DNA of 64,000 nucleotides from Bacillota bacterium (GTDB lineage Bacteria; Bacillota; Clostridia; Christensenellales; Pumilibacteraceae). The translations under genes were made by a program, and so were the position numbers. Below are positions 42,950-64,000 of this stretch, in pieces (within the stretch, counting starts at the first letter, position 1; each line of letters starts with the position of its first letter). The stretch lies in the NCBI GenBank assembly GCA_009779975.1, contig WRAY01000001.1, positions 1 to 64,000 on the forward strand. Reading direction: 5' to 3'. Under the pieces are notes generated by a model. It saw only the letters and a program-made list of their open reading frames with translations, was not told the origin of the DNA and made no database searches.

Positions 42950-44023
42950 CTAGCATTCTCCGTCAAGAATGTTAAAAACACTTGTGATATCTTCTTTTTT
43001 TAGATTTGAATTTTTTAGAAGTTGTTGTTCATTTTCTAAGTTGGTTGAGCGGGCTATGATTAGATTATTGTCGTCTATTATGCAGTTGTCTTTCTGAGTT
43101 TGTTTAATATAGTATTTGACTGATTTTGATATGATGATTTTGCATTTGCCTGTGATAAAAATATCTTGATTTGCAGGGACAAAAAATGTGCCGCCTAAAA
43201 TAAGAGAAGTTTTTTTGTTTTTTAGTTCAATTGTCGCACTTCCCTCAATCAATGTCAAGACTGCAAAAGTTTTTTCACTTCCTTTTAGAAACTGTTCGCC
43301 GTCAATTTCCAGTTCATATGCAGTGAAACTTTTGCAGCCGCCAAGCCTTGTTAATCCGTCATTTGTTTTTATTTTTTTGTCCAGTTTTTCATATTTTGAA
43401 TATGTCGAAACATTGAGAGCATCTTCAATATGTAATTCTCTTGGTTGACCGTCAGTTCCTACTCTTTTAAAATCATAGAGCCTGTAGGTTAAGTTACTGC
43501 TTTGCTGAACTTCATAGAGCGTGACACCTTTGCCTATTGCGTGAATAGTCCCTGCTTCAATAAAAAAACAATCGCCTTGTTTAACGGGAAAAAAGTTGAG
43601 TTTTTCAAGTATTGTTCCGTTTTTTAAATCATTTTCCAAATCATCTCTAGTCATGTCATGTTTAAAGCCGCAATATATCCCCGCATTTTTTTCAGCATCA
43701 ATTATATACCACATTTCCCTTTTTCCGAAACTGTTAACTTTTTTAGCGTATTCGTCATTCGGGTGAACTTGCACTGATAAATTATCTTCAGCATCAATAA
43801 GTTTTATTAAAAACTCCAATCCGTCTTTTGAATTCTCGCCCAAATTTTCGCTCGTCAAAACATCAGCCAAAGGTTTTCCTTCTTCGGTCAATGACATTCC
43901 ATCGGGATGAACGGAAAACTCCCAACTTTCGGCAATTGTTTTTTCGTCTGATACTTTGCCGAATTTTGACTTCAATTTTGTTCCGCCCCATATATAACTT
44001 TTTAACGCCGGTGTTATCTTCAT
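42950..44023 (-). CDS. manA: Mannose-6-phosphate isomerase, class I
   Basis: 357 residues with zinc-cupin motifs: LSVQVHPND (His and Asn-Asp), EMWYIID, FIEAGTIHAIGKG and NLTYRLYDF. Converts mannose-6-phosphate to fructose-6-phosphate for glycolysis. It begins six bases after the upstream cytosolic GxGYxYP gene, with AAGG inside that gene's last codons, so it is translated from the same message. Being last in this operon is the main reason to suspect a mannoside as the substrate. Confidence 0.92.
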   Translation of the reverse strand: MKITPALKSYIWGGTKLKSKFGKVSDEKTIAESWEFSVHPDGMSLTEEGKPLADVLTSENLGENSKDGLEFLIKLIDAEDNLSVQVHPNDEYAKKVNSFGKREMWYIIDAEKNAGIYCGFKHDMTRDDLENDLKNGTILEKLNFFPVKQGDCFFIEAGTIHAIGKGVTLYEVQQSSNLTYRLYDFKRVGTDGQPRELHIEDALNVSTYSKYEKLDKKIKTNDGLTRLGGCKSFTAYELEIDGEQFLKGSEKTFAVLTLIEGSATIELKNKKTSLILGGTFFVPANQDIFITGKCKIIISKSVKYYIKQTQKDNCIIDDNNLIIARSTNLENEQQLLKNSNLKKEDITSVFNILDGEC

Positions 44024-44029
44024 AATCTT

Positions 44030-45586
44030 TTACCTTTTTAGAGGTAGCCTTATATTTTGCTTTGCTATCTCAACTATTTCATCAACCGAGACTATTTCGA
44101 CATGTTTTTTTAGTTTTGAAACAATATATTCAACATGTTCCATTTCAACTGTCCAAGGGTGAATATTTAGAACAGTGTAGCCGCTCGCACTTGTCGGGTC
44201 GGCTTCAAAGTTGTTAATGGCATCAATATAACCATCCAGCCATTCCTTTGTTATTTGACCTGTTTGATTGCTTGGATGCCACAGCGACAAACGAACGCTT
44301 AAAAACGGCTTTCCTTCACTCCAGAAAATTTCGCCTTTTCCGCTTTCGTATCTATCGGGGTCAATTTCCCAAACTCCGCCCGATATGTTTTTTTGCTTCG
44401 CATAGTGTCTTAATCTTTCTTCTGCAATAAATTTGCCATCAAACTTGACATGTTTTAAGTTGTCTAAAAGAACTACTGCCGTCATGTCTGACTCAGTCAT
44501 TAACTGGCTTGTCAGGTTTGTGAATGCGTCAAGCCTTTCAATCGGATAAGTTGTTGAATTGATATAGCCTGCTCCTGACACTCCTGCAATAAAACTGTCA
44601 AACTCATTTGCTAAGTCAAAGGTGTAGTCAGTAACAACTGCCCCAAGCCTTGCCATATATGGCGGGAAAGTCCATGAAACTTTGTAGTCTCTTTTTCCTC
44701 TTAATCGCTGCCCAAAAGTTGAAGTGGTTGCAAAATTTCTTGAACACCATTGAATATTGTCACCGTCAGAGACGCAAATTGCAAGATAGTGCTTTCCTTT
44801 TTCTGCTTTAATTTTATTAGGTTTGGTTTTTTGTTTTAGTTTTTTGTCAATTCTTACACCTGCTAAAAAACTGGTGTTTGATGACCAGTCCATTGGTATG
44901 ACAAATTTTCCGAACTCTGAGCATTCGGCAACAAACTTTATCTCATCATCAGTCCAACCCATGACAGGAATATTATCGTCTGCCCATTTGAATATTTCAT
45001 TTCTGAATTCAACATCTTCGGCATTATGCTCGTCTGTGTAGAAACAAAACAATTTCAGTGCAACGGCAAAATCTCTTAGTTGCGGCATAAATAACGGTTG
45101 ATGAATAAGAGCACCTTTGTTTAGGCGGTCTTTGTATAGTTCAAAAATTTTGCGTTTTCTTTGCGTTTCATTTCCCTCAATATCCGCAAAATCAAACTTT
45201 TTGACAAAGTTTAATTTTATTGCTTTTTCTTCGCATGAAACAGGAACTGCCAAAAATCTTTCGACTCCTGAAACAACCATAGACGAATTAATGTCACCGC
45301 CTCTTGTTGAGTCAAATAAAACATAGCCTGCCTCAAAAACAGCACTTTTAAATTCGCTGACAATATCCCAAACTGATTTATATTCTTTTGAGGTATACTC
45401 ACCGGTTGCAACAAGATAGTCGACATATGCTTGATAATTATCGGTTATTATCACAATGCGTGCCTCATCTTGTGCGACAATGCCTTGAAGGGAGGACAGC
45501 ATCAAATACTCGTCCTTAGTCATATTGTCTAAGTTAATAGTGACAATATTTTTTCCTGATTTTAAAATTGAAAAAATGTCTTTCAT
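44030..45586 (-). CDS. Cytoplasmic GxGYxYP-family putative glycoside hydrolase
   Basis: 518 residues, no signal peptide. It has the family motif in GVSGAGYINSTTYPIERLDA, with VSDGDNIQWC, VIPMDWSSNTSFLAG, IPVMGWTDDE and LNIHPWTVEMEH as further landmarks shared with two secreted paralogues in this window (57039 and 60272). The family is annotated as putative glycoside hydrolase on structural grounds; the reaction is unproven. The Asp-rich SDGDN and the WEIDPDRY loop are candidates for catalysis. In a tight operon between a substrate-binding protein and manA, so it should act on an imported sugar. Confidence 0.85.
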   Translation of the reverse strand: MKDIFSILKSGKNIVTINLDNMTKDEYLMLSSLQGIVAQDEARIVIITDNYQAYVDYLVATGEYTSKEYKSVWDIVSEFKSAVFEAGYVLFDSTRGGDINSSMVVSGVERFLAVPVSCEEKAIKLNFVKKFDFADIEGNETQRKRKIFELYKDRLNKGALIHQPLFMPQLRDFAVALKLFCFYTDEHNAEDVEFRNEIFKWADDNIPVMGWTDDEIKFVAECSEFGKFVIPMDWSSNTSFLAGVRIDKKLKQKTKPNKIKAEKGKHYLAICVSDGDNIQWCSRNFATTSTFGQRLRGKRDYKVSWTFPPYMARLGAVVTDYTFDLANEFDSFIAGVSGAGYINSTTYPIERLDAFTNLTSQLMTESDMTAVVLLDNLKHVKFDGKFIAEERLRHYAKQKNISGGVWEIDPDRYESGKGEIFWSEGKPFLSVRLSLWHPSNQTGQITKEWLDGYIDAINNFEADPTSASGYTVLNIHPWTVEMEHVEYIVSKLKKHVEIVSVDEIVEIAKQNIRLPLKR

Positions 45587-45612
45587 AATATAGTGTTTCC
45601 TTTTTTATTTAG

Positions 45613-47196
45613 TTATATTGAAAAGTGGAAATGCAAGTCAAACAAATCAGCAGGTCTGCGTGTTCCACTTAGCAGTCTTGTGATAAAATCACCTAATTCA
45701 TGCTCCAATACTGCCCATCTATAAGTTGCCGGGACACTAATAACATGGTTAAGTTGTTCCATAAACACAGGCCAAGCGTTGCCTTGAGTGAAGTGTTCAT
45801 TTTCTATTGTTGAATAAGTCACAGGAATAAAATTTTGGGGAGCATTGTGAAGCAGCATTACTTCATCATTTGTCAAAAAGAATTTCATGAAATCAACAGC
45901 AAGTTCTTCGTTGATAGTTCCCGACGATGATGCCATTGAAAATAATCCTAAAACACTTTCGCGAGAACCACCTTCATAAAGACTAACGAGTGGTGCAAAA
46001 CGAAGATCATGTCCCATGACTTCATAAATCAATTGATACTGCTCTATTTTCCATGGTCCCATTTCCATAAAAGCAACTCTTCCGCCTTCAAATGCTCCTT
46101 CTTGAAAAGTTGCAGGAGCAAAATTATTTCTGCCCAAGTCATAAATCTTTTGTGCTGCTGCAACATTTTGAGATGAATAAAGCCTGATTTCTTCAAGATT
46201 TTCACACATTATTTCCCCGCCCATTCTCGCTGACATTGAAGTAAAATACATCGCCGCCATACTGTGATGTGCTGCTCCTGCAGGAATTGTGTATGGGACT
46301 AATGCATTTCCGCCTGTCAATCCTTGAAGTCTGTTATACTCCAAAACATCCGCACAAATTGCCATTTTTTCTTCCCATGTCGACGGAACATCAGCATCAG
46401 CAAACGCTCTTCCATGCACTCTTTGAAAAACTCTGTTTAAAAGAGTGTGGTTATAAGCAAGTGTCAAAACATTCGCAGAAACAGGAAGTGCAAACGCATC
46501 ACCTAAAAAAGTATTCGCCGGCCAAATGCTTTCAACAACTTGCGGACGAATGACAGTTTCAATTGCGGGGTCAAATTCATTTAAATTAGTAATGAATCCC
46601 ATGTTTGCAAGTTGTGGAACATAAACTGAGTCCAAAAACACTATGTCGGGATAATTAAAACCTTGTCTTGCAATCATATATTGCATGAAAAAATTAGTTG
46701 ATGCTTGCGGCACAACTCTGAATGTCACATTAGGATTAATTGCTTGATACAATTCAATCGCTCTGTTTAGTGAAGCAATCTCAACAGGAGCCCCGGGCCA
46801 CCAAATCAATAACTCACCCTCTCTGTCCGGAGGTGTTATCCCGCCATTGGGTGGCGCTGGCGGTCGTGGATTAGGGGTTGGATTAGGTGTAAATCTTCCG
46901 TAAAGAGGAATGTTTGATTGAGGTCTTGGATTTAGTGGTATTTCTATCACTCTATTTCCTCCAACCTCTGCATCAAACCAACCGTCAAATGTGTGCCCAA
47001 AAAGAGTGGCATCAGTTAGTGTCAAGGGCAAATCATCACGAGTAATTGTCGTTGGATTAATATGAAATACGCCTGACGGCAAATTAGCATAAAAATTATA
47101 TGTTATATTAAAGGTAATATCTTGATTACAGCCAAAACCAAATGACATGACAAATGCCGTTATTAGAATAAAAAATATTTTGGATATTTTTTTCAT
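45613..47196 (-). CDS. Sugar-type ABC substrate-binding lipoprotein with an N-terminal B-repeat
   Basis: 527 residues. Lipobox FGFGC (Cys near 23). Residues about 28-105 are one InlB/Listeria-Bacteroides type B-repeat (DDLPLTLTDATLFGHTFDGW), then a Pro/Asn hinge, then a family 1 solute-binding protein (ELLIWWPGAPVEIASLNRAI, PDIVFLDSVYVPQLANMGFI, VAFMEMGPWKIEQYQLIYEV). No ABC permease or ATPase gene is near. Its ATG lies one base after the aldo/keto reductase stop and its GGGGAGAG site is inside that gene. The fusion is unusual. Confidence 0.85.
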   Translation of the reverse strand: MKKISKIFFILITAFVMSFGFGCNQDITFNITYNFYANLPSGVFHINPTTITRDDLPLTLTDATLFGHTFDGWFDAEVGGNRVIEIPLNPRPQSNIPLYGRFTPNPTPNPRPPAPPNGGITPPDREGELLIWWPGAPVEIASLNRAIELYQAINPNVTFRVVPQASTNFFMQYMIARQGFNYPDIVFLDSVYVPQLANMGFITNLNEFDPAIETVIRPQVVESIWPANTFLGDAFALPVSANVLTLAYNHTLLNRVFQRVHGRAFADADVPSTWEEKMAICADVLEYNRLQGLTGGNALVPYTIPAGAAHHSMAAMYFTSMSARMGGEIMCENLEEIRLYSSQNVAAAQKIYDLGRNNFAPATFQEGAFEGGRVAFMEMGPWKIEQYQLIYEVMGHDLRFAPLVSLYEGGSRESVLGLFSMASSSGTINEELAVDFMKFFLTNDEVMLLHNAPQNFIPVTYSTIENEHFTQGNAWPVFMEQLNHVISVPATYRWAVLEHELGDFITRLLSGTRRPADLFDLHFHFSI

Positions 47197-47197
47197 T

Positions 47198-48112
47198 TTA
47201 TTTCTCTCCCCTCACTATCTCCTCAACCTTTTCCCACATTTCTTTGTTAATCTCTTTGTTTAAAAAGTTAAGATTATTTTTTAGGTGTTCAATCTTTTTT
47301 GTTCCCATTAGGACTGAGGAGATGTTTTCGTTTTTGAAAAGAAATTGAAGAGCAAGTTGCGTTAGCATTTCGGCATTGTTATTTGTTATTTCGAGTAGTT
47401 TTTTTATGCGAATTTTGTCCGGTTCATTCAAACTGTCCAAATTATCCAAAACTCTTTTAGTAAACATTCCGTTCCCCATTCCGCTTCTGATAAAAACTGC
47501 GATACCTTTTTCGGCACACAGTTTTATGTTTTCTTCATTGTCACGATAAAACAAATGATGTCCCATTTGCATCATGTCAAAGTCGCCGCTTTCAATACAC
47601 CTTTTGGCAAGCGGTCCGCAAATTGATGCTCCGAGAAATTTGATTTTGCCTTCTTTTCGCGCATCTTTCATTGCTCCGACTGTCTCACCTCTATCCAGAG
47701 TTTCCTCCGGATTTGATCCAAAATGGATTGCCATTATGTCAATGACATCTGTTTTTAAAAGGCGTAAACTTTTTTCGATTGATTCTTTTATTGCCTTATA
47801 GGAAAAGTCATAGTATGTTCCGTCATACCCTAGATTGTGTTCTCCGCATTTTGATGCCAGAATAAATTCCTTTCTCCTGTGAGAGAGAAACTTTCCAATC
47901 CTCTCTTCACTTTTGTGATAGGCACTTGCAGTGTCAATCAAATTAATCCCCAAATCCAAAACACTGTTTAAAACTCTTTCAGACTCTTTTTCACTAGGGA
48001 TATCCCTGTCCGCTCCCATCCCCCAAACTCTGCCAATCTCCAAACTGCCAAAGCCCGCAAAGGTGACTTCAGTGTTCATTCTTTTGATTTTTCTCTTAGT
48101 TAATCCTGTCAT
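47198..48112 (-). CDS. Aldo/keto reductase
   Basis: 304 residues. The catalytic set is visible: Asp and Tyr in NLIDTASAYHKSEERIG, Lys in LASKCGEH, His in IMAIHFG. SVLMGTKKIEHLKNNL is the C-terminal NADP-binding end. The start overlaps the MFS gene stop by 17 bp. In this operon it may reduce or oxidise an imported sugar or sugar derivative. A downstream ATG at 48079 is possible but less well placed. Confidence 0.88.
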   Translation of the reverse strand: MTGLTKRKIKRMNTEVTFAGFGSLEIGRVWGMGADRDIPSEKESERVLNSVLDLGINLIDTASAYHKSEERIGKFLSHRRKEFILASKCGEHNLGYDGTYYDFSYKAIKESIEKSLRLLKTDVIDIMAIHFGSNPEETLDRGETVGAMKDARKEGKIKFLGASICGPLAKRCIESGDFDMMQMGHHLFYRDNEENIKLCAEKGIAVFIRSGMGNGMFTKRVLDNLDSLNEPDKIRIKKLLEITNNNAEMLTQLALQFLFKNENISSVLMGTKKIEHLKNNLNFLNKEINKEMWEKVEEIVRGEK

Positions 48113-49349
48113 TTAAAATTATGTCTCCTTGTTTGTTATTATTTTGCATTTTTTCATTTTTGCTAACCTTTGAGTGCCAAGCTCTAAGAAGAATTCCGTG
48201 AAGAGCAAAAAAGATTAGCATTATTGCCATACCGATAACGACAAGCAATTCAGTTACTCCTATTAATGCTATGATGATGACAATAACACATGATAATGCC
48301 CGCCCCACAAAAAATGCGCTTTCAAAAAATAAATGACTTTCTGCAATATATTTTTCTGTGCCGAATTTTTTTGGGAAGTTTAGCCGCGCTGTTGATTCTT
48401 CAAGCGTCACAACCGTCCTGAAAATTATTCCAAACTGAAATATAACAAGAGTTGTGAAACCAACATTAAAAAATAACGGAATTAGAGTGAGAAGCGGCAC
48501 AATTCCAAGTGCCCAATAAATTTTTTTGTTTAGTTTTTTATAAATAATTAGAACTACAACTCCCACAACAGCCGCAATTGATGAAAATGCTCCAAGTGAT
48601 ATATTTGAGCCGAACACTAAAACAACAAGAAGAACCAGTCCGAAACTTACTGCCCTGAGCATTCCGCTGAGCGCTTCAACTCCCCAAAAGGCAAATGTTA
48701 ATTTAAGACGCTTTTTTTCTTTTAGTGTTTTAAAAAATTCCCTTATTTTAAAACTATCCTTTTCTCTTTTCGGCGAAGAAAAAATAAATGTTGAAATGAG
48801 TTGAATGGCACCGATTACCAGGACGATAATACTTGTTAAATAAAATGAGCCAAAATCAATTAACAGTCCGAATGTGAATGGGAAAATTATGCTTGCGGCA
48901 ATTTCAAGACCAAAAAACCATGTCATATAATTTTTTGTTTTTTCTCCTTCAAAAGTGTTTGTGACAAGATAGTTCATCGCTCCCCAATGCAATCCGCCGA
49001 CAGCACCCCAAATAAAGCCAAATAATATATAGAAGTTTCTTAGTCCGTCGCTCCAAAAAATAAGCGTTACCAAAAAAGCACAAGCAAGAGCTACGGAGGC
49101 TCTTGTTATCCAAATGGGTCTTATTTTTTTGCATAGGTAAGAGGCTAGAAAATAGAAAATAAATAATGCAGCACAATCCAAAAGAACAAAAAGTGCCACC
49201 GCCATGAAACTATAGTCAGTGAGTGAAAAAACTTGTGCCACCAAAAAGACACTAACAAACAACGCAAGGACAGAAAAAGCAATATTAGTTGTCAGCATCG
49301 CTATTTTGTTTGTTTTTATTTTTGTCTCTGTTTTTTTACTTTCTTCCAT
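48096..49349 (-). CDS. Major facilitator superfamily transporter
   Basis: 417 residues with 12 hydrophobic helices in two groups separated by a charged loop (SSPKREKDSFKIREFFKTLK). GFIWGAVGGLHWGAMNYLVT resembles sugar-related MFS members. Overlaps the genes on both sides (14 and 17 bp), so it is translated in the same operon as the HAD protein and the aldo/keto reductase. Substrate unknown; a glycoside is inferred from context. Confidence 0.85.
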   Translation of the reverse strand: MEESKKTETKIKTNKIAMLTTNIAFSVLALFVSVFLVAQVFSLTDYSFMAVALFVLLDCAALFIFYFLASYLCKKIRPIWITRASVALACAFLVTLIFWSDGLRNFYILFGFIWGAVGGLHWGAMNYLVTNTFEGEKTKNYMTWFFGLEIAASIIFPFTFGLLIDFGSFYLTSIIVLVIGAIQLISTFIFSSPKREKDSFKIREFFKTLKEKKRLKLTFAFWGVEALSGMLRAVSFGLVLLVVLVFGSNISLGAFSSIAAVVGVVVLIIYKKLNKKIYWALGIVPLLTLIPLFFNVGFTTLVIFQFGIIFRTVVTLEESTARLNFPKKFGTEKYIAESHLFFESAFFVGRALSCVIVIIIALIGVTELLVVIGMAIMLIFFALHGILLRAWHSKVSKNEKMQNNNKQGDIILNDRIN

Positions 49350-50331
49350 CGATATAATCTAAAATCTGTTGAAAATTTTCAAAGAATTCGTCGCACAGAG
49401 GCAATGTTCCGCTTTCTTTGATGTTTCCGCCTCCGATACCTATTGTTGTGAATCCTGCAAGTTTCACAGCACAAACGCCTGCTCCGCTGTCCTCAATTCC
49501 CAAAACATGGTCTCTTTCTTCAAAAGGAATGTTGAGTCCAACAACGCATGTTTCAGCATAAAGCCATGGATGCGGTTTTGGAGACAACTCACCCAAAGTT
49601 CCTGCCTCGCCTTTGCGAAGAGGAAAACCTGCTGTGATTGCTGCGTCATAGAAATCTTTAGGGTCACCCATTTTCAGAGTTTTAAACGCATCCAAAATTT
49701 CCGGCCATGCTTTTTCATAGAGACCGCTTGTGACAAGTCCTACTTTTATTTTTCGCTCTTTTAAAGCATATAGAAAATCTTTAAGACCGGGAGTCGGAGT
49801 AAACGCTCCTTCCTTTCCACGACCCGCTAAAATTTCGCTCATTTCTCTGTGAGTGTGTTCAAAATAAAATTTTCTTGCCTCTGCTATATCTTTTTTCGGG
49901 CAATATTTTTGAATGCAATAGTTCAAATGCTCCGAGACACTGTGTCCTGAAACATAGGGAATGTCATCTTTACTCAATCGGAAATTGTCGTCACCAAGCA
50001 ATGATGCCGTTGTTCTCTCAATTATCCAAATCCAAAACTCTTCAGAGTGAACACTTGTTCCGTCCAAATCCATAAGGACTGCTTTCACAGGTCTTTTTAG
50101 TGACACTTTATGAACAGGATAGAATGCCGGATAGCCCAAAGCAGAGTCAACAAATGCCAAAGTTCTGTCTTTAAAAGCAATAAATTCTACTTTCTTATCG
50201 CCTGTTGCAGTGATTGATTGAACTCCGCCAATACCAACAGCAAACATTCCGCCTCCGCCCTTTTTCAGTTCAATAAAACCGCAATCAGCATCAAATTCCC
50301 CTAAGTTGGGGATAACAAATTTTTTCTTCAT
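49336..50331 (-). CDS. HAD-superfamily phosphatase/phosphoglucomutase-like protein
   Basis: 331 residues. Residues about 83-325 are a HAD hydrolase: nucleophile loop VLMDLDGTSVHSEEF, VTSG, SPKPHPWLY and GIEDSGAGV, as in the beta-phosphoglucomutase group. The first 80 residues (FVIPNLGEFDADCGFIELKK) are an extra domain I do not recognise. AAGGA before the ATG; first gene of the tight operon with the MFS transporter. It could convert or dephosphorylate a sugar phosphate. Confidence 0.85.
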   Translation of the reverse strand: MKKKFVIPNLGEFDADCGFIELKKGGGGMFAVGIGGVQSITATGDKKVEFIAFKDRTLAFVDSALGYPAFYPVHKVSLKRPVKAVLMDLDGTSVHSEEFWIWIIERTTASLLGDDNFRLSKDDIPYVSGHSVSEHLNYCIQKYCPKKDIAEARKFYFEHTHREMSEILAGRGKEGAFTPTPGLKDFLYALKERKIKVGLVTSGLYEKAWPEILDAFKTLKMGDPKDFYDAAITAGFPLRKGEAGTLGELSPKPHPWLYAETCVVGLNIPFEERDHVLGIEDSGAGVCAVKLAGFTTIGIGGGNIKESGTLPLCDEFFENFQQILDYIDGRK

Positions 50332-50351
50332 TTTTTAGTATTCCTTTATGT

Positions 50352-50385
50352 AGTGCAGGGCACAGCAAATGCAGCCCCTGCCAAT
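50352..50385. repeat. Degenerate family A repeat
   Basis: GTGCAGGGCACAGCAAATGC then AGCCCCTGCCAAT keeps only part of the palindrome; in the 68-bp gap before the CotH gene stop. Confidence 0.4.
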
Positions 50386-50399
50386 TTATTTCTTCTCTT

Positions 50400-52949: not shown

Positions 52950-52987
52950 TTTTTTCTCCTTGTTTATGATTTTAATAAAATATACTA

Positions 52988-53051
52988 TAGGGGCGATCGT
53001 TCGTCCGCTGCTTGGAGATGTTTCCTAGCAACGGACGAACGATCGCCCCTA
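52988..53051. repeat. Family A palindrome with perfect 20-bp arms
   Basis: TAGGGGCGATCGTTCGTCCG (52988-53007) and its exact reverse complement (53032-53051). In the 144-bp gap between CotH and mannosidase genes; a possible attenuator or terminator. Confidence 0.85.
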
Positions 53052-53093
53052 CAATATTTTTTTATTGCACTAACTACGATAGTTCAAAAAGCA

Positions 53094-55943: not shown

Positions 55944-55974
55944 AATGTTTATTTTTTTCTCCTTGTGGGGTTTT

Positions 55975-56961
55975 TTACTTCTTCACCGACTCTCCTTCTA
56001 TAAAGTCGCTTTCAATTAGGATTTGTTCGCCGTAGTTTTGAGGTTGTCCTTCAATTAATTTTAAAAGTAATCCTACTGCTTTTTTTCCGATTTTGAAATA
56101 GTCTTGTTTTGCTCCTGTCAGTGCCGGAGAAAAACCATAGAAATTGTCGCCGCCCAGTGTTATGACTGAAATATCTTTTCCTATTTCAATGTTTTTTTGG
56201 TTGCAAAATTCATAGACATATCTGGCTTTTGTTGAACTTGAAACTACTATGCAGTCAAATTGGTCATCTTTGAAATCTTCCTCCAAAACTTTAAAAACTG
56301 AGTCTTTAGTGCTTTTTATGTGCCTTATAGTTATTTTTAGATCTTTGCAATTCAAACTCTCCAGTGCGTTTAGCCGCTGTTTTGAAATCATTAACTCTTT
56401 GGTTGAGTTTAAAAACAATATCTTTCTGTGCCCGGTGTCAAATGCATGATTGAATATTTTTTGAGTCAACTCATGATTGTCAATATCAACATTGAAAAGT
56501 TTTTCCGGTCTTTTTTCCGGCTCACCAATGAGAACAAAAGGCAACTTCTCTTTTCCAAACAATTGCATACGATTATCAATTATTTTCGGAGTTACGATAA
56601 TCGCACCCATTATCGGAGCGGCCGCCGTTTTGAGAAGTTTTTCAATTTCACTGCTTGTTAGACCAAAATAAGGAATGACATACATTTTTCGTTTTGCTAA
56701 CTCCAACATACAAGTTTCAATGAGGTCATTATAGAATGAATGAAAGCGGTTGTTCTCGGGTTCAAAAAAAAGTCCTATGATGTTTGTGTTATTTGACAAT
56801 ATATTGGACGCAAAGAAACTTGCCGTGTAGTCAATCTCATCACAGACTTTTTTCACCCTTTCTTTAATTTCCGGACTGACATATTTTTTACCGCTGAGAG
56901 CATAAGACACCGTTGATTTTGACACTCCCGCTATTTTTGCAACATCATTAATATTTGCCAT
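55975..56961 (-). CDS. LacI-family regulator
   Basis: 328 residues. N-terminal LacI helix-turn-helix (INDVAKIAGVSKSTVSYALS) with the hinge helix following, then a periplasmic-binding-like sugar-sensing domain (VITLGGDNFYGFSPALTGAK). Located inside the glycan gene run, directly upstream of the mannosidase, so it most likely controls this locus. A dyad AAAAGG-N8-CCTTTT lies at 57018-57037 and a 10-bp stem in its leader. No ribosome binding site before the ATG. Confidence 0.92.
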   Translation of the reverse strand: MANINDVAKIAGVSKSTVSYALSGKKYVSPEIKERVKKVCDEIDYTASFFASNILSNNTNIIGLFFEPENNRFHSFYNDLIETCMLELAKRKMYVIPYFGLTSSEIEKLLKTAAAPIMGAIIVTPKIIDNRMQLFGKEKLPFVLIGEPEKRPEKLFNVDIDNHELTQKIFNHAFDTGHRKILFLNSTKELMISKQRLNALESLNCKDLKITIRHIKSTKDSVFKVLEEDFKDDQFDCIVVSSSTKARYVYEFCNQKNIEIGKDISVITLGGDNFYGFSPALTGAKQDYFKIGKKAVGLLLKLIEGQPQNYGEQILIESDFIEGESVKK

Positions 56962-56980
56962 GATTTACTTAATTCAAGGA

Positions 56981-57008
56981 GTATTTTTGCTTACAAGGGC
57001 AAAAATAC
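56981..57008. promoter_or_regulatory. Perfect 10-bp stem-loop in the lacI leader
   Basis: GTATTTTTGC (56981-56990) and GCAAAAATAC (56999-57008) are exact complements with an 8-base loop, about 20 bp before the lacI ATG. Could be an operator or RNA hairpin. Confidence 0.5.
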
Positions 57009-57017
57009 GACGACAAC

Positions 57018-57037
57018 AAAAGGTTTTAATACCTTTT
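57018..57037. promoter_or_regulatory. Putative LacI-type operator
   Basis: AAAAGGTTTTAATACCTTTT: arms AAAAGG and CCTTTT around an AT centre, just downstream of the secreted GxGYxYP gene and upstream of lacI. Spacing and symmetry suit a LacI dimer; binding is inferred. Confidence 0.5.
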
Positions 57038-57038
57038 A

Positions 57039-60000
57039 TTACCAAGGAATAGGTCCTCCGTTACCGGGGTTTCGATAAACTTGAGGGACATAACGAGTGA
57101 CCATGCAGATGAGTTCTCCGGCAGAAATTATTTGAACATGCGGAGCAAGATACGACACCAAAATATCTAAATGCTCTCTTTCCATTCTCACTGTCCAAGG
57201 ATGTATATTAATCATGCTGTAACCGTCGATAGTTCGATAGTTTGTGCTAAAACTGTTTATTCTCTCAGCATAAGCCCTTAACCACTCACGATTGACTAAA
57301 TCTCTATTGTTGCTTGGATGCCAAACCGACAGTCTCATACTAATAAAAGGCTTTCCGTTTGACCAAAACACTCTGCCTGTTCCGCCTTCATAGCGAGACG
57401 GATCCATCATCCAAATTCCGCCTCTGATTTGATCATGCATTGTGAAATAGTTAAGCCTTGACGCTGCAAAATCATGCATTGACATTCCGGCTGCTGCCGC
57501 ATCTTGTTGAAGATGATTGATGTTATCAAGCAAAGTCAGAACTTCTAGTCCTGCGTTTTCCATATGTCTTGCAGTAGATTCCGCAAACGCCGGCAGATGC
57601 TGGATTGGGAAACGCATTGGATTTCCATACCCTACTCCTGAAACTCCTGCAACAAAACTATCCAAATAATATGGAGCGGTTGTTTTTGCCATGTTGTAGA
57701 TATTTCTTATAACCGGTTCTTTGAACTCACCGATACTTGGGGCAAAAGTCCAGTTTATTATGAAATCCATCGGATTATTTGAATTATGCCTGCGATACCT
57801 GTAGCCAAAATTTTGATTAGCATCCATCGCAAAATCCCGTGCCATCCATTGAACATTGTCGCCGTCACTGATGACAAGGGCAATGTAGTGATTGCCTTGC
57901 TGACCTTGAATAACTCTGTCTTGTCTTGGTTGTTCAAAAGGTCCGCCTTCTCTAACACCTGCTAAAAATGAAACATTGCTTGACCAGTCAGACGGAAGAA
58001 CAAAATTTCCGTGCATCGACATATCAAAAACAAAATTAATTTCTTCCGGTGCCCAACCCCAAACAGGAGAGTTTGGCTCCATCCACTCAAAAACCTCTCG
58101 TCTAAACTGCCTATCTTCCGGTGATTCTCTGGTGTAGAAAGTGAACGCACCAAGCGCTATGCTCAAATCTCTCATATTCCTTCCCATAGAGTTATTAATT
58201 GGATTTTGATGAAGAACATGGCGTCTGTTAAGTCTTGATTTGTATTCGTTGAACAAATCTCTCATTTGATAATATGTGTTGATATCTGTTGCATCTCTTT
58301 TTTGGACAAGACCTAACTCTTCTGCTCTTGCTATATCATTTGGATGAGATGCCACCATTAGCCAACCCTCAACCCCCGAAATAGTTGCCGCAGCATTCAC
58401 TGAATTTTGCAAACTTGGCAGTCCTTGCGTAGTTTCATTATATCTTACAAAACCGTTATCGGTGATGTGGTCACGAAACATGTCAACCAACTCCCACGGA
58501 CAATCAACTCTGGTGTAGGAAAAGCCTTCATAGTTTTCAATAATAAATCTCAAATGAGGCATATAAAAAGTCGTATCAATAAAAATTTGAGGAGCCGTTT
58601 GTGCGACAAGTCCTTGAATTGATGTCACCATGATAAACTCCGAACGAGTAAGTCCGGCCGCACTAATAACAACAACTTCTCTTGAAGCATTCGGAAACCC
58701 TTCAAAAAACTCACTCATCAAAGGTTCAAATTTAGCATAAAACTCGTGATTACTAAGTGTTGAAACCTGAGTTATTGATGTTCCCAAAAACTCATCATTA
58801 TCAAACCATCCGACAAAACTATATCCGACAAGCGCATGTCTTGCAGGCAGCAATTTTAAAGGAAGTTCATCATGAGCAAAAGTTTCCTGATTATAGTGTG
58901 CTGCCCCATCAGGAACATTAAAGGTTAATGTGTAGAGAGGAGTCCATTTTGCAAAAAGAATTGTGTTATCTGCTTGTGTTATTTCTTCTATTAAATAACC
59001 GTCTGTTTCAGCATCAAACCAGCCATCAAAACGAAAACCTTTGCGATATGCTGAAAGTAATGTTAAAGGCAAATCTTCAACAGTAAAAATATTTTGGTTT
59101 TCATGCTCAGATTCCGTCACTCCATTAAAAATAGCAGTGAACTTAATCAAGGTGAATTTGCCATACAGCGTGATATTTCCTGACTCGGTTATAGATGTTA
59201 TTTCGTCTCTCTCAAATTCAGGGTTGTCAAACCATCCGTCAAAATCATGTCCAAAAAGATATGCTCCTTCTAATTCAAGCGGAAAATCGGTTTCAACAAA
59301 TGTCAAAGGATTGTAATGAACAGCGTTTATCGGAATGATGAATGTTATTGAATAAACAGGAACAGGAGTCCATTTTGCAAAAAGATAATGATTAGACAGC
59401 GTTGTTATTTGAGTTATCGGATTTCCGATAAAACCGGCATTGTCAAACCAACCTTGAAAAATATAGCCTTCTCTTGTTGCATTCATCAGGTTTATAGGTC
59501 TGTCATTTATATTAAAAGATGTTGGGTTTTCCGAGTGATTAGTTCCGCCGTTCAAAGTGTAGGTTATATTAAAACTGTTGAGGTTAAATCTTGCATAAAC
59601 TGCGGTGTTTCTCAGTTGGGTTATTTGAGAAATTTCTTCCCCGTTTGACGGAGCATTAAACCAACCGACAAACGAATACCCTTCCCTTGTTGCCGGCAGC
59701 AGATTGAGCGGCAAACTTCCTATGTTGAAAGAGACAGCGTTGCCGTGTTCGCTCGCCAAAACATTATTAAATGTTATAGAGTAATCAGTGAGAACAAATC
59801 TTCCCCAAAGAGAAACATTCCCTGTCTGAGTTATCTCTTCAACTTGACTTCCGCCGGTTGCAGCATCAAACCAACCTGTAAAAGTAAAACCTTCTCTGGT
59901 TGCAGGCAGTAAAACAAGCGGCAAATCGTCATTTGTGAATGTCGTTTCATTTGGGTTTGCCGCCGCTGAATGCAGAGAAAAAGTAATGTTATAGGTAGTT

Positions 60001-60101
60001 GAGCCATTGTTACCTCCATTTTCAGGAACAACACAAGCAACCACAAAAAACGCAGTGAACAGCACCGCTAAAATAAGCACAGTTATTTTTTTTATTTTCA
60101 T
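57039..60101 (-). CDS. Secreted GxGYxYP putative glycoside hydrolase with six B-repeats
   Basis: 1020 residues from ATG 60101, seven bases after GGAGG. Lipobox FFVVAC near residue 23. Six tandem B-repeats of about 68 residues follow (DDLPLVLLPATREGFTFTGW; six copies of GWF), then a GxGYxYP catalytic region: LPSDWSSNVSFLAG, VISDGDNVQWMARD, GVSGVGYGNPMRFP, GIWMMDPSRYEG and INIHPWTVRMEREH. Homologous to the cytosolic protein at 44030. Outside the cell, it may bind and cut a glycan whose pieces are imported. The 20-codon in-frame extension upstream has no ribosome binding site. Confidence 0.88.
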   Translation of the reverse strand: MKIKKITVLILAVLFTAFFVVACVVPENGGNNGSTTYNITFSLHSAAANPNETTFTNDDLPLVLLPATREGFTFTGWFDAATGGSQVEEITQTGNVSLWGRFVLTDYSITFNNVLASEHGNAVSFNIGSLPLNLLPATREGYSFVGWFNAPSNGEEISQITQLRNTAVYARFNLNSFNITYTLNGGTNHSENPTSFNINDRPINLMNATREGYIFQGWFDNAGFIGNPITQITTLSNHYLFAKWTPVPVYSITFIIPINAVHYNPLTFVETDFPLELEGAYLFGHDFDGWFDNPEFERDEITSITESGNITLYGKFTLIKFTAIFNGVTESEHENQNIFTVEDLPLTLLSAYRKGFRFDGWFDAETDGYLIEEITQADNTILFAKWTPLYTLTFNVPDGAAHYNQETFAHDELPLKLLPARHALVGYSFVGWFDNDEFLGTSITQVSTLSNHEFYAKFEPLMSEFFEGFPNASREVVVISAAGLTRSEFIMVTSIQGLVAQTAPQIFIDTTFYMPHLRFIIENYEGFSYTRVDCPWELVDMFRDHITDNGFVRYNETTQGLPSLQNSVNAAATISGVEGWLMVASHPNDIARAEELGLVQKRDATDINTYYQMRDLFNEYKSRLNRRHVLHQNPINNSMGRNMRDLSIALGAFTFYTRESPEDRQFRREVFEWMEPNSPVWGWAPEEINFVFDMSMHGNFVLPSDWSSNVSFLAGVREGGPFEQPRQDRVIQGQQGNHYIALVISDGDNVQWMARDFAMDANQNFGYRYRRHNSNNPMDFIINWTFAPSIGEFKEPVIRNIYNMAKTTAPYYLDSFVAGVSGVGYGNPMRFPIQHLPAFAESTARHMENAGLEVLTLLDNINHLQQDAAAAGMSMHDFAASRLNYFTMHDQIRGGIWMMDPSRYEGGTGRVFWSNGKPFISMRLSVWHPSNNRDLVNREWLRAYAERINSFSTNYRTIDGYSMINIHPWTVRMEREHLDILVSYLAPHVQIISAGELICMVTRYVPQVYRNPGNGGPIPW

Positions 60102-60182
60102 GACAAACCTCCGTTTTTTTAATAATTTCTTGTTCAAATAGGTTAAATTATTTGAACTCAAGTAATTTTTGAAAAAGATAAC

Positions 60183-60227
60183 CTGTAGGGCGGCGTTTTA
60201 CCGTCCTTAGAAGCCGCCGCCCCTACA
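60183..60227. repeat. Family A palindromic repeat
   Basis: CTGTAGGGCGGCGTTTTACC and GCCGCCGCCCCTACAAAT: arms TGTAGGG(G)CGGCG/CCGCCCCTACA. It lies between the two secreted GxGYxYP genes and could separate their expression. Confidence 0.75.
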
Positions 60228-60271
60228 AATTAATCTTTTAAAAAATTAGTTTGAAATACAAGCAGATTTTT

Positions 60272-63200
60272 TTATGCAACATTAGTTATCCAATGTCTAA
60301 AGAACATTTTTTCACCGGCACCGTTTGCAACTCTGTCGCCGGAATCACGAGCCTGAAGCATGACTGTCACAGGAGTGTTTTCAGTTATTGTGATACCAAA
60401 CTCAGAAAGGTTGCGAGTTATTTGCCATAAAGGATTTTCATATTCAGCGTTTCCAAATGTTTTAGTCCAATCTTGAATTACTACCATTCTGTTATTAATA
60501 TAAAGTGTAATTTTATATTTGCAACCCCATGCAGCAACATCTCCGCCGTCAACATTCCAAGTAAAGCCGGTTGTTCCTGCCGGAATAGTGTAGTGCTTAA
60601 ATATGAACATAGCACTATTTGTTCCTCTCATTTCTTGTCCGCCGCCGTTTGAAACATCAATTCTTAGTGAACCGTAAGGGAAAGCCGCTTGTGCTCCTCT
60701 TTCAGTCCATGTCGCACCAAATGACATAAATTGAGTGTTTAACCACATATGCCCTAATGCCCAGTCCTCAGTGTTGTGATTGAGAAACTGATTGTTCAAT
60801 GGGTCATATTGTCCGTTTGGAGTTGCGACTATTGACTGAATTCTGAAGAATGTCATCCTGACCGCATTTGCTCCGCTCATAAGAGCAGTAACTTCCGCAT
60901 GAGCCGGCTGACCTTGATAATTCTCAAAATATTGCCTTAGAGGGAAGCCGAAATATTGCCATCCGTCACCGGCAATAGCAGCAGTTGCACTAAATGAATG
61001 ATTGCTGGTCGCCCTTAGAAGAGAATCCTCAAAAATTCTCACTCTCTGTCCGCCAACAGTAAAATAGAAACTCATTCGTGCCGCATTTGCATTTGCCGCC
61101 TCAGGAGTAGTTGCTGTTGCTGCACCCCGTGCCATAAACCAAACAAATAAGTTATCCTCATTAGGCAAATAGAATGTAGGCTGTATTGCAGTTACCCCTC
61201 TGGGGATTTGTATGCTGGTCGCCAATCTCGTGAATCCTTCTTGTCTTGACGGGTCGCCGCCGGCAGTTGCTACAAAATGACTTATATTTCCGCCAGTTGA
61301 AGTCCAGCCTTCAGTTGTAAACAAGAATTCATGGAAAAGCGGATTAACAGGAACTAAGTCAGCGCGTTCAGCAAGCCAATCACGAGTCATATTTGCTCCA
61401 TCCATCGCCGGACGAGTTTCAGTTCCTCTTGCACCCCAATTGTTAGCAGTATTATCAACTCCTGTTGGGGTTATATTTTCAATCACCATGTCAATCATTT
61501 GGTCGACAGAAATAAATCTGATATTAGAATCGGTTAGTTCAGCGATAGCACGCATATCTTGATAATTGTGTGACCAAGGGTGAACATTGATTAGCGAAAA
61601 TGAATCAATACTGTTGGTTAAATATCTCTCATTTGTTGCATTACGAGTTGCAGGATTTGCCGCAGCCGCAGCGTGTCTTGCAAAATAATTTAGTCTCCCT
61701 GCGATAAAAGCCGGGTTAGTGTTCCACAAACTGTCACGAGGTCCCAAGAATGGTTTATATACCGTATCACCTTCAATATTCAGTCCTGTTGTCCAGTAAA
61801 CAGAGCCTGTAACTGACCCGAAATAACTACCCCCTTCATACATTATCCCGCCTCTAAGCGACGGAACTTGAGCCAAGTATCTCATGGTTTGTTTGCGGAC
61901 TGTTGTGTTAATGGCTCCGCCTGGTCCTGCATAACCATCACTCATCGCAGTAACCAATGAAATACCGCTTCTTCTCAAATAAACATCCATTGCATCAAGA
62001 TATGATAAGAATCCGTCACGATTGTCTAACATGAATCTTCCCAAGTTAGCGTAGCCTTGCCCTGTTACAGGAGCAATAAACGAGTCATACGAAGTTGCAA
62101 GATCTTGTTGAATATTTCTATACACACTCGGCATCATGTCGACAATAGACGGAGAAACTCCCCATGTCACAGAGAAACTGTCGTGTTCGCGTCCTGCAGC
62201 ACCCATCAAATTTCTTCCGAAAGGATAAGTCATTTGCCATTGTCCGACATTGTCGCCGTCACTGACAATAAAAGCAACATAGTGATATCCGTCAACTGCT
62301 TCGACTCTTTCAGTTTGAGATTCAGGATTTCCAAATTCCCACAAATAACCTGTTGCAGGGTCGTTCCTGAATTCACGGGCAGCAAAGAAAGACAAATTTT
62401 GAGCAAAGTCTGTCGGAACAAAAAATTGTCCGTTTCTTGAAAAGAATGCAACATCTCGTCCCTCTAAGAAAGTGTAGCCATAAATAGGCGCATTATCATC
62501 AACAAAATCCGTTACTCTTTGTTTAAGTGTTAATTCAGGACTAGTATTGCCGGTAGGAGGGTGAGCAAAGTCAGCATAGTAATGCAAGAACCTGAACGCA
62601 ACACCAATATCTCTTGCGTGATGTTCAACAACATCATTTTCTGTGTGTCTTTGATGAACAAGCGCTGAACTGTTTAGTTCGCCGCTAACAATATCAAGCA
62701 TCCAATTATAACCAAAAGCAAGCAAATCCACATCAAGCATAACTTCTAATCCAAAATCAGAAGACAGTGAATTTATCCATGCTTGCTGTGCATCATATCC
62801 GGCACCGGGCTCCGGGTGAGCCACCGGCAAAAATCCGGTTATTCCGGCAAGTGTTGCTGCAATATTGGTTTGCAAAGTTCCTTCCCTGTAGAGAATTAGT
62901 CCGGGATTTGCATATCCGCTGTTATTGTTACGAAATTCCAAACTAGAAGCATATCTTCTCAAAACACCTTGAACAACAACAAAATTGCTAGCCGGAATAT
63001 TAGAACCCCACATAGGAAGCGTCGTTCCATTAACATCAACATTTCTTGCTCTCATTGCAGCCCAACTGTCAACATACATTTCAATCATGCGCTCTAGTGA
63101 AATATTCACAAAATCAATTCCATACGCCTCTGAATGAAAATCAAGATGATAATCATTTGCAACACCGCCTCCTGCATCAACAAAGAAGCGAACATTGTCA

Positions 63201-64000
63201 CGGGCAAATAATCCTTGGATAACATTTGCAGTAAGCAAGTTTCTCGCAGAAAGTGCAGTATGAGTTGCACCGTCGTCATCATTCAACTCTCTTCCGCGAT
63301 TAAGAACATAGATTGTCGGAGCGTTATTTCTGTCGAAAACATTGCTGTCTTGAAGTCTTGTTTGAGGAAAATGTGAAAACTCTAGACCTGTTGGCAAATC
63401 TTCCAAAACAACACCGCTGGTAAATCTTGCAAATAAGACAACATGACCAATTTCAGTAATTTGAGTTATTGCATCGCCTGTGAACTCAGGATTGTCAAAC
63501 CAGCCATGAAAAGTTGCCGCCTCTCTTGTGGCATTAAGTAATGTTAGCGGCAAATTGTTAATCGTGAAAGTTGCAGGATTGTTATGCTCTGATGCAATGA
63601 CTCCATTAAAAGTAAGATTGAAAGGAGTTGGATTAAACAGTCCAAAAACCTCAAAATGGTCAGCCACCGTAATTTGAGTTACAGGAGTGCCTGTGAACTC
63701 AGGATTGTCAAACCAACCAATAAAATCATGACCGTGAAGATATGCAGGATTTAAATAAAACGGCACATCATCTTCGGTGAATTGTTCATTATTATTAGGA
63801 TTTAAAGCACCACCCGGCATTGAAAACAGAGCAGTATAATTATCGGCTTGTTCAAATCTTGCATAGAGAGTACGATTTCCTAATGCAGTGATTTGAGTTA
63901 TCGGAGTTCCTGAAAACTGAGCATTATCAAACCAACCACGGAACAAATATCCCAAACGAGTCGGATTAGCCAAATTAAACGGCAAATTGTTAATATTAAA
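60272..64000 (-). CDS. Large secreted GxGYxYP protein, N-terminus beyond the window
   Basis: At least 1242 residues; the frame is open to the right edge, so signal and first repeats are not seen. At least three B-repeats (GYLFRGWFDNAQFSGTPITQ), then a divergent GxGYxYP region: FVPTDFAQNLSFFAA, FIVSDGDNVGQWQM, TGQGYANLGRFMLDN (motif without YP), GGIMYEGGSYFG and LINVHPWSHNYQD. After it comes about 350 residues of beta-rich sequence with Trp/Phe repeats, resembling two carbohydrate-binding or discoidin-like modules (FTWNVDGGDVAAWGCKYKIT). The largest of three paralogues here. Confidence 0.85.
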   Translation of the reverse strand, partial: FNINNLPFNLANPTRLGYLFRGWFDNAQFSGTPITQITALGNRTLYARFEQADNYTALFSMPGGALNPNNNEQFTEDDVPFYLNPAYLHGHDFIGWFDNPEFTGTPVTQITVADHFEVFGLFNPTPFNLTFNGVIASEHNNPATFTINNLPLTLLNATREAATFHGWFDNPEFTGDAITQITEIGHVVLFARFTSGVVLEDLPTGLEFSHFPQTRLQDSNVFDRNNAPTIYVLNRGRELNDDDGATHTALSARNLLTANVIQGLFARDNVRFFVDAGGGVANDYHLDFHSEAYGIDFVNISLERMIEMYVDSWAAMRARNVDVNGTTLPMWGSNIPASNFVVVQGVLRRYASSLEFRNNNSGYANPGLILYREGTLQTNIAATLAGITGFLPVAHPEPGAGYDAQQAWINSLSSDFGLEVMLDVDLLAFGYNWMLDIVSGELNSSALVHQRHTENDVVEHHARDIGVAFRFLHYYADFAHPPTGNTSPELTLKQRVTDFVDDNAPIYGYTFLEGRDVAFFSRNGQFFVPTDFAQNLSFFAAREFRNDPATGYLWEFGNPESQTERVEAVDGYHYVAFIVSDGDNVGQWQMTYPFGRNLMGAAGREHDSFSVTWGVSPSIVDMMPSVYRNIQQDLATSYDSFIAPVTGQGYANLGRFMLDNRDGFLSYLDAMDVYLRRSGISLVTAMSDGYAGPGGAINTTVRKQTMRYLAQVPSLRGGIMYEGGSYFGSVTGSVYWTTGLNIEGDTVYKPFLGPRDSLWNTNPAFIAGRLNYFARHAAAAANPATRNATNERYLTNSIDSFSLINVHPWSHNYQDMRAIAELTDSNIRFISVDQMIDMVIENITPTGVDNTANNWGARGTETRPAMDGANMTRDWLAERADLVPVNPLFHEFLFTTEGWTSTGGNISHFVATAGGDPSRQEGFTRLATSIQIPRGVTAIQPTFYLPNEDNLFVWFMARGAATATTPEAANANAARMSFYFTVGGQRVRIFEDSLLRATSNHSFSATAAIAGDGWQYFGFPLRQYFENYQGQPAHAEVTALMSGANAVRMTFFRIQSIVATPNGQYDPLNNQFLNHNTEDWALGHMWLNTQFMSFGATWTERGAQAAFPYGSLRIDVSNGGGQEMRGTNSAMFIFKHYTIPAGTTGFTWNVDGGDVAAWGCKYKITLYINNRMVVIQDWTKTFGNAEYENPLWQITRNLSEFGITITENTPVTVMLQARDSGDRVANGAGEKMFFRHWITNVA

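Follow-up and report, generated by a model that had tools for sequence, protein, structure and literature searches.

What does a bacterium do with three copies of a protein family whose structure has been available since 2011 and whose reaction is still to be established? The GxGYxYP family was published in 2014 together with its fold, predicted triad, multi-copy clusters with mannosidase genes, undetected activity and over-representation in human gut metagenomes (PMC4071793). We found no report of a GxGYxYP reaction in the open literature (subscription papers and CAZy lying outside this scope), in agreement with an earlier reading of this DNA (the initial annotation). Here, we analyzed a 64,000-nucleotide stretch from a gut-type Bacillota bacterium (the window; contig WRAY01000001.1, positions 1 to 64,000) in which three GxGYxYP genes stand within one run of genes, and asked what these proteins and their neighbors may do.

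Gene content of the locus

Eleven minus-strand genes occupy the last 21 kb of the window (42950-64000; ORF list), and open reading frames and Pfam matches bore out the order and spacing that the initial annotation had given. In the six-gene core (50331-42950), neighboring genes are separated by 6, 26 and 1 bp or overlap by 17 and 14 bp, within the 26 bp limit first described. This core comprises manA (42950-44023), a class I mannose-6-phosphate isomerase by Pfam and by NCBIfam TIGR00218 (141 bits against a cut-off of 116); GxG1 (44030-45586), a leaderless, cytosolic GxGYxYP protein of 518 residues; SBP1 (45613-47196), a lipoprotein ABC solute-binding protein (Pfam SBP_bac_8) with an added N-terminal B-repeat; an aldo/keto reductase (AKR, 47198-48112) recognized by Pfam, with every NCBIfam model far under its cut-off; an MFS transporter (48096-49349); and a HAD phosphatase or mutase (49336-50331, Pfam HAD_2). 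The same strand then carries a CotH-like kinase lipoprotein with B-repeats (50400-52949, Pfam CotH 5.7e-33), a GH38-like protein in which no signal peptide was seen (53094-55943), a LacI-family regulator (55975-56961, Pfam LacI and Peripla_BP_3), and two secreted GxGYxYP lipoproteins, GxG2 (57039-60161) and GxG3 (60272-64000, running beyond the window). Pfam scored ManA, SBP, AKR, MFS_1, HAD, CotH, LacI and GH38 (four of four domains) over cut-off, and GxGYxYP_C in 44030-45586, 57039-60161 and 60272-63985, confirming three GxGYxYP proteins. GxG2 has a VVAC lipobox at its N-terminus and six readable B-repeats, the number originally claimed, although Pfam scores only four singly.

The window's contig (C1) measures 185,580 bp in a genome of 2.03 Mb and 45 contigs. 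GxG3, truncated by the end of the window, is complete on C1 at about C1:64669 as a 1465-residue lipoprotein, and all three GxGYxYP copies are intact. Beyond it lie two MalG/MalF-type ABC permeases, a second binding protein (SBP2) and a B-repeat lipoprotein of 1863 residues, after which housekeeping genes start, so that the locus reaches about C1:73781, outside the window. The whole genome holds exactly three GxGYxYP genes and one GH38 gene, all at this locus, and a whole-genome search returned no GH92, GH76, GH125 or GH130. LacI-type CG-centred palindromes were absent from the window's intergenic gaps. SBP1 and SBP2 (L021:8695-9993) share 83% protein identity and 85% DNA identity, SBP1 having an InlB-type B-repeat that SBP2 lacks, and the two appear to stem from a duplication, after which a domain was gained or lost. 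The 1863-residue lipoprotein (L021:10190-15781; C1 68190-73781) combines many B-repeats with an unannotated domain, about 165 residues long and present three times, and is probably a surface glycan binder.

GxGYxYP proteins inside and outside the cell

GxG1 aligned to BT2193 (PDB 3sgg) with an E value of 2e-37. The acidic triad proposed for BT2193 in 2014 (E272/D331/D333; PMC4071793) corresponds to a predicted triad of E215/D274/D276 in GxG1, and each of the three window copies has it. Across 103 sequences, D172, E215, D233, D274, D276, N277 and Y341 (GxG1 numbering) were invariant and H476 was found in 101; the invariance of D274-N277 is partly by construction, because the motif holding them served to collect most loci (peptide patterns SDGDN[VIL]QW or D[SY]F[IV][AS]GVSG), and E215, D172, D233 and H476 lie outside that motif. 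The family's Pfam domains (PF16216/PF20957/PF20958/PF14323) passed curated cut-offs, with no hit for the second N-terminal subdomain model and none in GxG3 for the first.

Structure prediction, a check suggested in the initial annotation, gave a GxG1 model (AlphaFold, pLDDT 94.4) that superposed on 3sgg with a Z score of 43.2 and an rmsd of 2.4 over 489 residues, reproducing its two-domain fold of a three-repeat N domain and a 7-stranded barrel. The barrel also matched CE4 (NodB) deacetylases, ArnD, GH57 and, less well, GH38, a likeness to NodB/CE4 and GH38 already noted in 2014 (PMC4071793). A Foldseek search with the model returned nothing better than 3sgg. The three-repeat domain (residues 1-228, window 44900-45586) superposed weakly on Clostridium difficile Cwp6 and Cwp8 (5j72, 5j6q; Z 9.1 and 8.9, rmsd about 5), proteins with a triple CWB2 wall-binding repeat; the 2014 paper saw no relative of this domain (PMC4071793).

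One explanation of these proteins is that they are carbohydrate-binding, non-catalytic helpers resembling SusD, with catalysis residing elsewhere. The lack of any activity found to date (PMC4071793) and the many ancillary domains on secreted copies are consistent with such a role, but polar cleft residues invariant in 103 sequences are typical of an active site, and a purely binding role makes little sense for single-domain copies in the cytosol. We therefore consider helpers quite unlikely and infer that GxGYxYP proteins are catalytic.

The finding that the same fold occurs on both sides of the membrane, claimed in the initial annotation, proved real, with an arrangement conserved in 10 other loci by tree and synteny. 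On a tree of 93 GxGYxYP domains, the leaderless state required 4 changes compared to 17.5 when shuffled, and 18 of 19 leaderless copies fell inside or adjoining one group with GxG1. GxG2 lies beside GxG1 and is an extra secreted copy. GxG3 clades with secreted copies of five other loci (L069, L071, L076, L085 and L086; support 100, subject to a long-branch warning), and, independently of the tree, the order SBP, permease, permease, GxG3 in the window's genome is identical to that of the module described below. GxG1 and GxG3 are the module's inside/outside pair, GxG3 being the equivalent of its conserved secreted partner. An Oscillospiraceae locus (L142) has a leaderless copy elsewhere on the tree, again accompanied by HAD, permeases and a GH38 of that type; it seems that the cytosolic form arose here a second time alongside the same neighbors, the copy's place being unsure on long branches.

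A conserved module in other genomes

We compared 71 non-redundant neighborhoods with a readable GxGYxYP copy, collapsed from 79 GTDB loci and drawn mostly from metagenome-assembled genomes (MAGs). A contig search with a four-sequence alignment found loci, while GxG1 alone found none and a nine-sequence alignment was too diverse. Seventeen loci had a leaderless copy and 54 had secreted copies only (tblastn; an ORF-based count was similar), with L076, which has an ambiguous start codon and a placement among cytosolic copies, counted as cytosolic. The cytosolic-type loci were set apart by a LacI-like regulator (15/17 versus 0/54), a binding protein (12/17 versus 0/54), a HAD protein (10/17 versus 0/54), manA (7/17 versus 0/54) and hexokinase (4/17 versus 0/54), as well as by higher counts for a second permease (13/17 versus 5/54) and GH38 (10/17 versus 7/54).

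These counts describe a recurrent module in which a HAD protein and a GH38-like protein accompany a cytosolic GxGYxYP protein, LacI, a binding protein, two permeases and a secreted GxGYxYP protein, often joined by manA and hexokinase. Ten further non-redundant loci carry all or a large part of it. L069, L085 and L086 show the module's order (HAD and GH38 divergent from GxGYxYP, LacI, a large secreted protein in some, SBP, two permeases, secreted GxGYxYP), and L071, L076, L078, L080, L109 and L114 show it partly. L078 is the same contig as that of G044, a genome of the family to which the window belongs. We searched the 71 related loci for window-type AKR, MFS and CotH genes with tblastn and found none, and these three were rejected as module members and are local additions. 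The initial reading of a glycan locus is supported, as a carbohydrate-catabolic locus, by LacI, the ABC importer, the secreted binding proteins and manA.

Parts of this arrangement have known counterparts. GxGYxYP genes in mannoside-gene clusters, with multiple copies per locus, were described in 2014, but here one cytosolic copy is paired with HAD and a GH38-like protein that lacks its nucleophile, and an ABC importer takes the place of SusCD (PMC4071793). The Caldithrix abyssi cluster likewise has GH38 and an MFS transporter alongside several GxGYxYP genes, but it has GH92 and ROK where the window's locus has LacI, HAD, an ABC importer and manA (PMC4071793). The Streptococcus pneumoniae N-glycan locus (GH38-GH125-GH92-ROK with NgtS-P1-P2; PMC5215778) shares an importer with cytosolic mannoside breakdown in a Gram-positive bacterium, but is without GxGYxYP, and no GH92, GH125 or GlcNAc-releasing gene was seen in the window's locus. 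The locus is only partly new, the link between GxGYxYP and mannosidases having been made by Rigden in 2014 (PMC4071793). Neither the conserved Gram-positive module nor the cytosolic lineage with its strict partners, nor a nucleophile-less GH38 subfamily paired with one HAD subfamily, was found in the open literature.

Other GxGYxYP contexts differ. The initial annotation had tied its reading to GxGYxYP genes keeping to sugar genes in related genomes, and they do so in the module but not among phytase-fused copies, which in Clostridium-like genomes sit among unrelated genes. Long GxGYxYP proteins (about 630-825 residues) amid non-sugar genes were seen at L051, L055, L058, L061 and L062, with a PTP-like phytase domain on both that were tested (L058 and L061); we set the phytase-fused copies aside as a guide to function, their architecture and context being different. 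Secreted GxGYxYP genes at L094, L095, L105 and L108 adjoin uxuA/uxuB/kdgA-like hexuronate genes (assigned by eye). In Paenibacillus and Bacillus loci (L131, L132, L133, L136 and L137), a Pfam-less protein of about 728 residues (cluster c22) is encoded near GxGYxYP, directly upstream in four, and is possibly a new carbohydrate enzyme. In G044, the C-terminal region of a secreted GxGYxYP protein is repeated in the next lipoprotein as three matching stretches (L022:13242-17937), a common region that is likely a shared unannotated sugar-binding domain.

The GH38-like and HAD partners and the sugar

The designation "GH38-like" held for the domains of the 53094-55943 protein, with the Pfam N, middle and C domains present, and failed for its catalytic nucleophile. 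In SpGH38, His13, Asp15 and His351 bind zinc, Asp232 is the general acid and Asp125 serves as nucleophile and zinc ligand (PMC2815779). Aligned with solved bacterial GH38 structures (3lvt, 5kbp and 2wyh), the window protein keeps the equivalents H14, D16, H393 and D269, and has Thr126 where SpGH38 has Asp125. The same threonine occurs in all 11 module loci (the window and 10 others), and SGYTAT[AS]YGQ is fixed in the module homologues of 10 of 10 other non-redundant loci, at 56-64% identity with the window protein; each of these loci carries HAD. The Asp is retained by GH38 proteins encoded next to secreted-only GxGYxYP genes and by those of relatives. Similarity to SpGH38/EfGH38 and MngB extends over the overall sequence, the H/D/H zinc ligands and the general acid, but the NCBIfam model of the mannosylglycerate hydrolase MngB (NF007331) gave 427 bits against an equivalog cut-off of 1138. 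Because the nucleophile is replaced in all 11 loci, the protein is predicted not to be a canonical alpha-mannosidase, and mannoside hydrolysis by it cannot be assumed. Annotation pipelines may call T126-type genes alpha-mannosidase despite the missing catalytic residue. GH38-like proteins of a different type, with Phe at the nucleophile position, were seen in two relatives without GxGYxYP (G084 and G104). At L187:9862-12567 and L189:7733-10528, GH38-like proteins with this Phe (GY[NE]SFGWGQ) are encoded beside PfkB-like kinases and form another nucleophile-less subfamily.

This substitution bears on the most conventional account, in which GxGYxYP glycosidases inside and outside the cell and a normal retaining GH38 alpha-mannosidase degrade alpha-mannan or N-glycans and feed ManA. 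GH38 Pfam domains over cut-off, the Asp-bearing GH38, GH92 and GH125 that neighbor GxGYxYP genes elsewhere, and the Bacteroides and Caldithrix clusters (PMC4071793) are in keeping with ordinary degradation; with Asp replaced by Thr in 11 of 11 module proteins and a genome without GH92, GH125, GH76 and GH130, however, we regard it as unlikely. Strong overall conservation argues against decay of the GH38-like protein. Since its zinc ligands and acid are also kept and its nucleophile is gone, it most likely still uses zinc to act on a sugar, though not via the classical covalent intermediate, probably with water or phosphate as its nucleophile or in a reaction other than classical GH38 hydrolysis. 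Reports of a nucleophile-less GH38 were not found in the open literature (again with subscription papers and CAZy outside scope).

The HAD protein, found with a T126-type GH38-like protein in every module locus, has a C1-cap HAD body preceded by an N-terminal beta domain of 80 residues that no Pfam model matches. Its DxDGT motif, MDLDGT, is invariant in 10 homologues, its fold matches the superfamily, and it is among the most conserved module parts (59-68% identity among 10 module homologues). In an order-level survey of 396 genomes, close HAD copies (at least 66% identity) occurred in 4, all among the 18 with GxGYxYP (P 3e-6); two less similar copies (56 and 41% identity) were seen in genomes without GxGYxYP. 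The fold fits sugar phosphatases about equally as well as beta-phosphoglucomutases, with mannitol-1-phosphate phosphatase among the best matches, but TIGR01990 gave 27 bits against a cut-off of 189, PDB profile matches were partial only, and an invariant Trp100 occupies the position of the beta-phosphoglucomutase hallmark His. At L188:9867-13264, a distant homologue (41%) adjoins a GH2-like gene, assigned by eye and possibly encoding a beta-mannosidase, together with ABC genes.

Two explanations give this partner a phosphate-related task. Under phosphorolysis, the GH38-like protein would be an inverting alpha-mannoside phosphorylase, phosphate replacing the lost nucleophile with acid D269 kept; a beta-phosphoglucomutase-like HAD would convert the resulting beta-mannose 1-phosphate to mannose 6-phosphate for ManA, and GxGYxYP would prepare the substrate. 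The missing nucleophile beside kept acid and zinc ligands, the invariable one-to-one pairing with a HAD protein that comes closest to beta-phosphoglucomutase and sugar phosphatase models, and the presence of manA where no hexokinase was seen in the window's locus are all consistent with it, and a GH130 study describes phosphorylase/hydrolase switches through active-site residue changes (PMC4599007). But the HAD score lies far under the mutase cut-off, the Trp100 replacement favors a phosphatase, 4 of 17 loci encode a hexokinase, which implies free mannose, and a phosphate site in the GH38-like protein is hypothetical; we give phosphorolysis a slender chance. Alternatively, the target could be a phosphoglycan such as fungal phosphomannan, with HAD as phosphatase, the GH38-like protein handling phosphate-linked or phosphorylated mannose and GxGYxYP opening the chain. 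In yeast-mannan breakdown, GH38 removes phosphate-linked mannose and phosphatases then act (PMC10154615), and the HAD-GH38 gene pair in every module, the phytase-like phosphatase fused to GxGYxYP in other loci and the mannitol-1-phosphate phosphatase match agree with such a target. Yet the GH38 of that pathway is a canonical enzyme, the phytase-fused copies are a distant branch in another context, and the locus has no direct sign of a phosphate substrate, leaving the phosphoglycan a small chance. We likewise consider it doubtful that the module encodes a cytosolic alpha-mannoside pathway in which a nucleophile-less GH38-fold inverting phosphorylase or other non-classical enzyme, with its obligate HAD partner, is fed by a GxGYxYP pair of new activity.

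With the GH38-like protein lacking its nucleophile, the case for mannose is mainly based on manA in the window's operon, hexokinase beside manA in relatives, and, next to other GxGYxYP members, GH92 (5 loci), GH125 (5 loci) and Asp-bearing GH38. GH38 occurred in 6 of 6 GxGYxYP-bearing genomes compared to 44 of 151 relatives overall (P 0.0005), and Rigden described GxGYxYP clusters with GH92, GH38 and MFS and in a mannan PUL in 2014 (PMC4071793). Against this, the GH38 lacks its nucleophile, uronate genes lie beside some secreted copies, phytase-fused copies sit among unrelated genes, no alpha-mannosidase was found within 10 kb in 41 of 54 secreted-only loci, and activity on mannans was not found for the Bacteroides thetaiotaomicron mannan-PUL members (H. 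J. Gilbert, personal communication in PMC4071793). On balance, we think mannose a rather probable sugar, a view confined to this module and not meant for the family at large.

Our preferred reading, held with moderate confidence, is a LacI-controlled locus for uptake and catabolism of a glycan most likely containing mannose. Secreted GxG3 and GxG2 would act on the glycan at the cell surface, a step attributable to no known alpha-mannan enzyme of GH92, GH76, GH125 or GH130 because the window's genome has none; the binding protein and two permeases would import the product; GxG1, the GH38-like protein and HAD would finish it in the cytosol; and ManA would last convert mannose 6-phosphate to fructose 6-phosphate. 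The initial annotation is therefore partly supported: the locus is a carbohydrate-catabolic one, and, given the missing GH38 nucleophile, the proposed stepwise breakdown of a mannose-containing glycan is no more than plausible. A GH38 subfamily that keeps its zinc ligands and acid, lacks the nucleophile and is invariably accompanied by one HAD subfamily points to mannoside chemistry that has escaped recognition, and GxG1, being small, soluble, cytosolic and single-domain, is a practical assay target whose importer, regulator and two dedicated partners can now be named.

Some kb from the glycan locus, the minus strand also encodes a phage-type large terminase (31134-32573) and a portal protein (28191-30182), with PHROG matches of 5.8e-25 and 2e-24, respectively, marking a prophage or remnant that probably spans 24-33 kb of the window.
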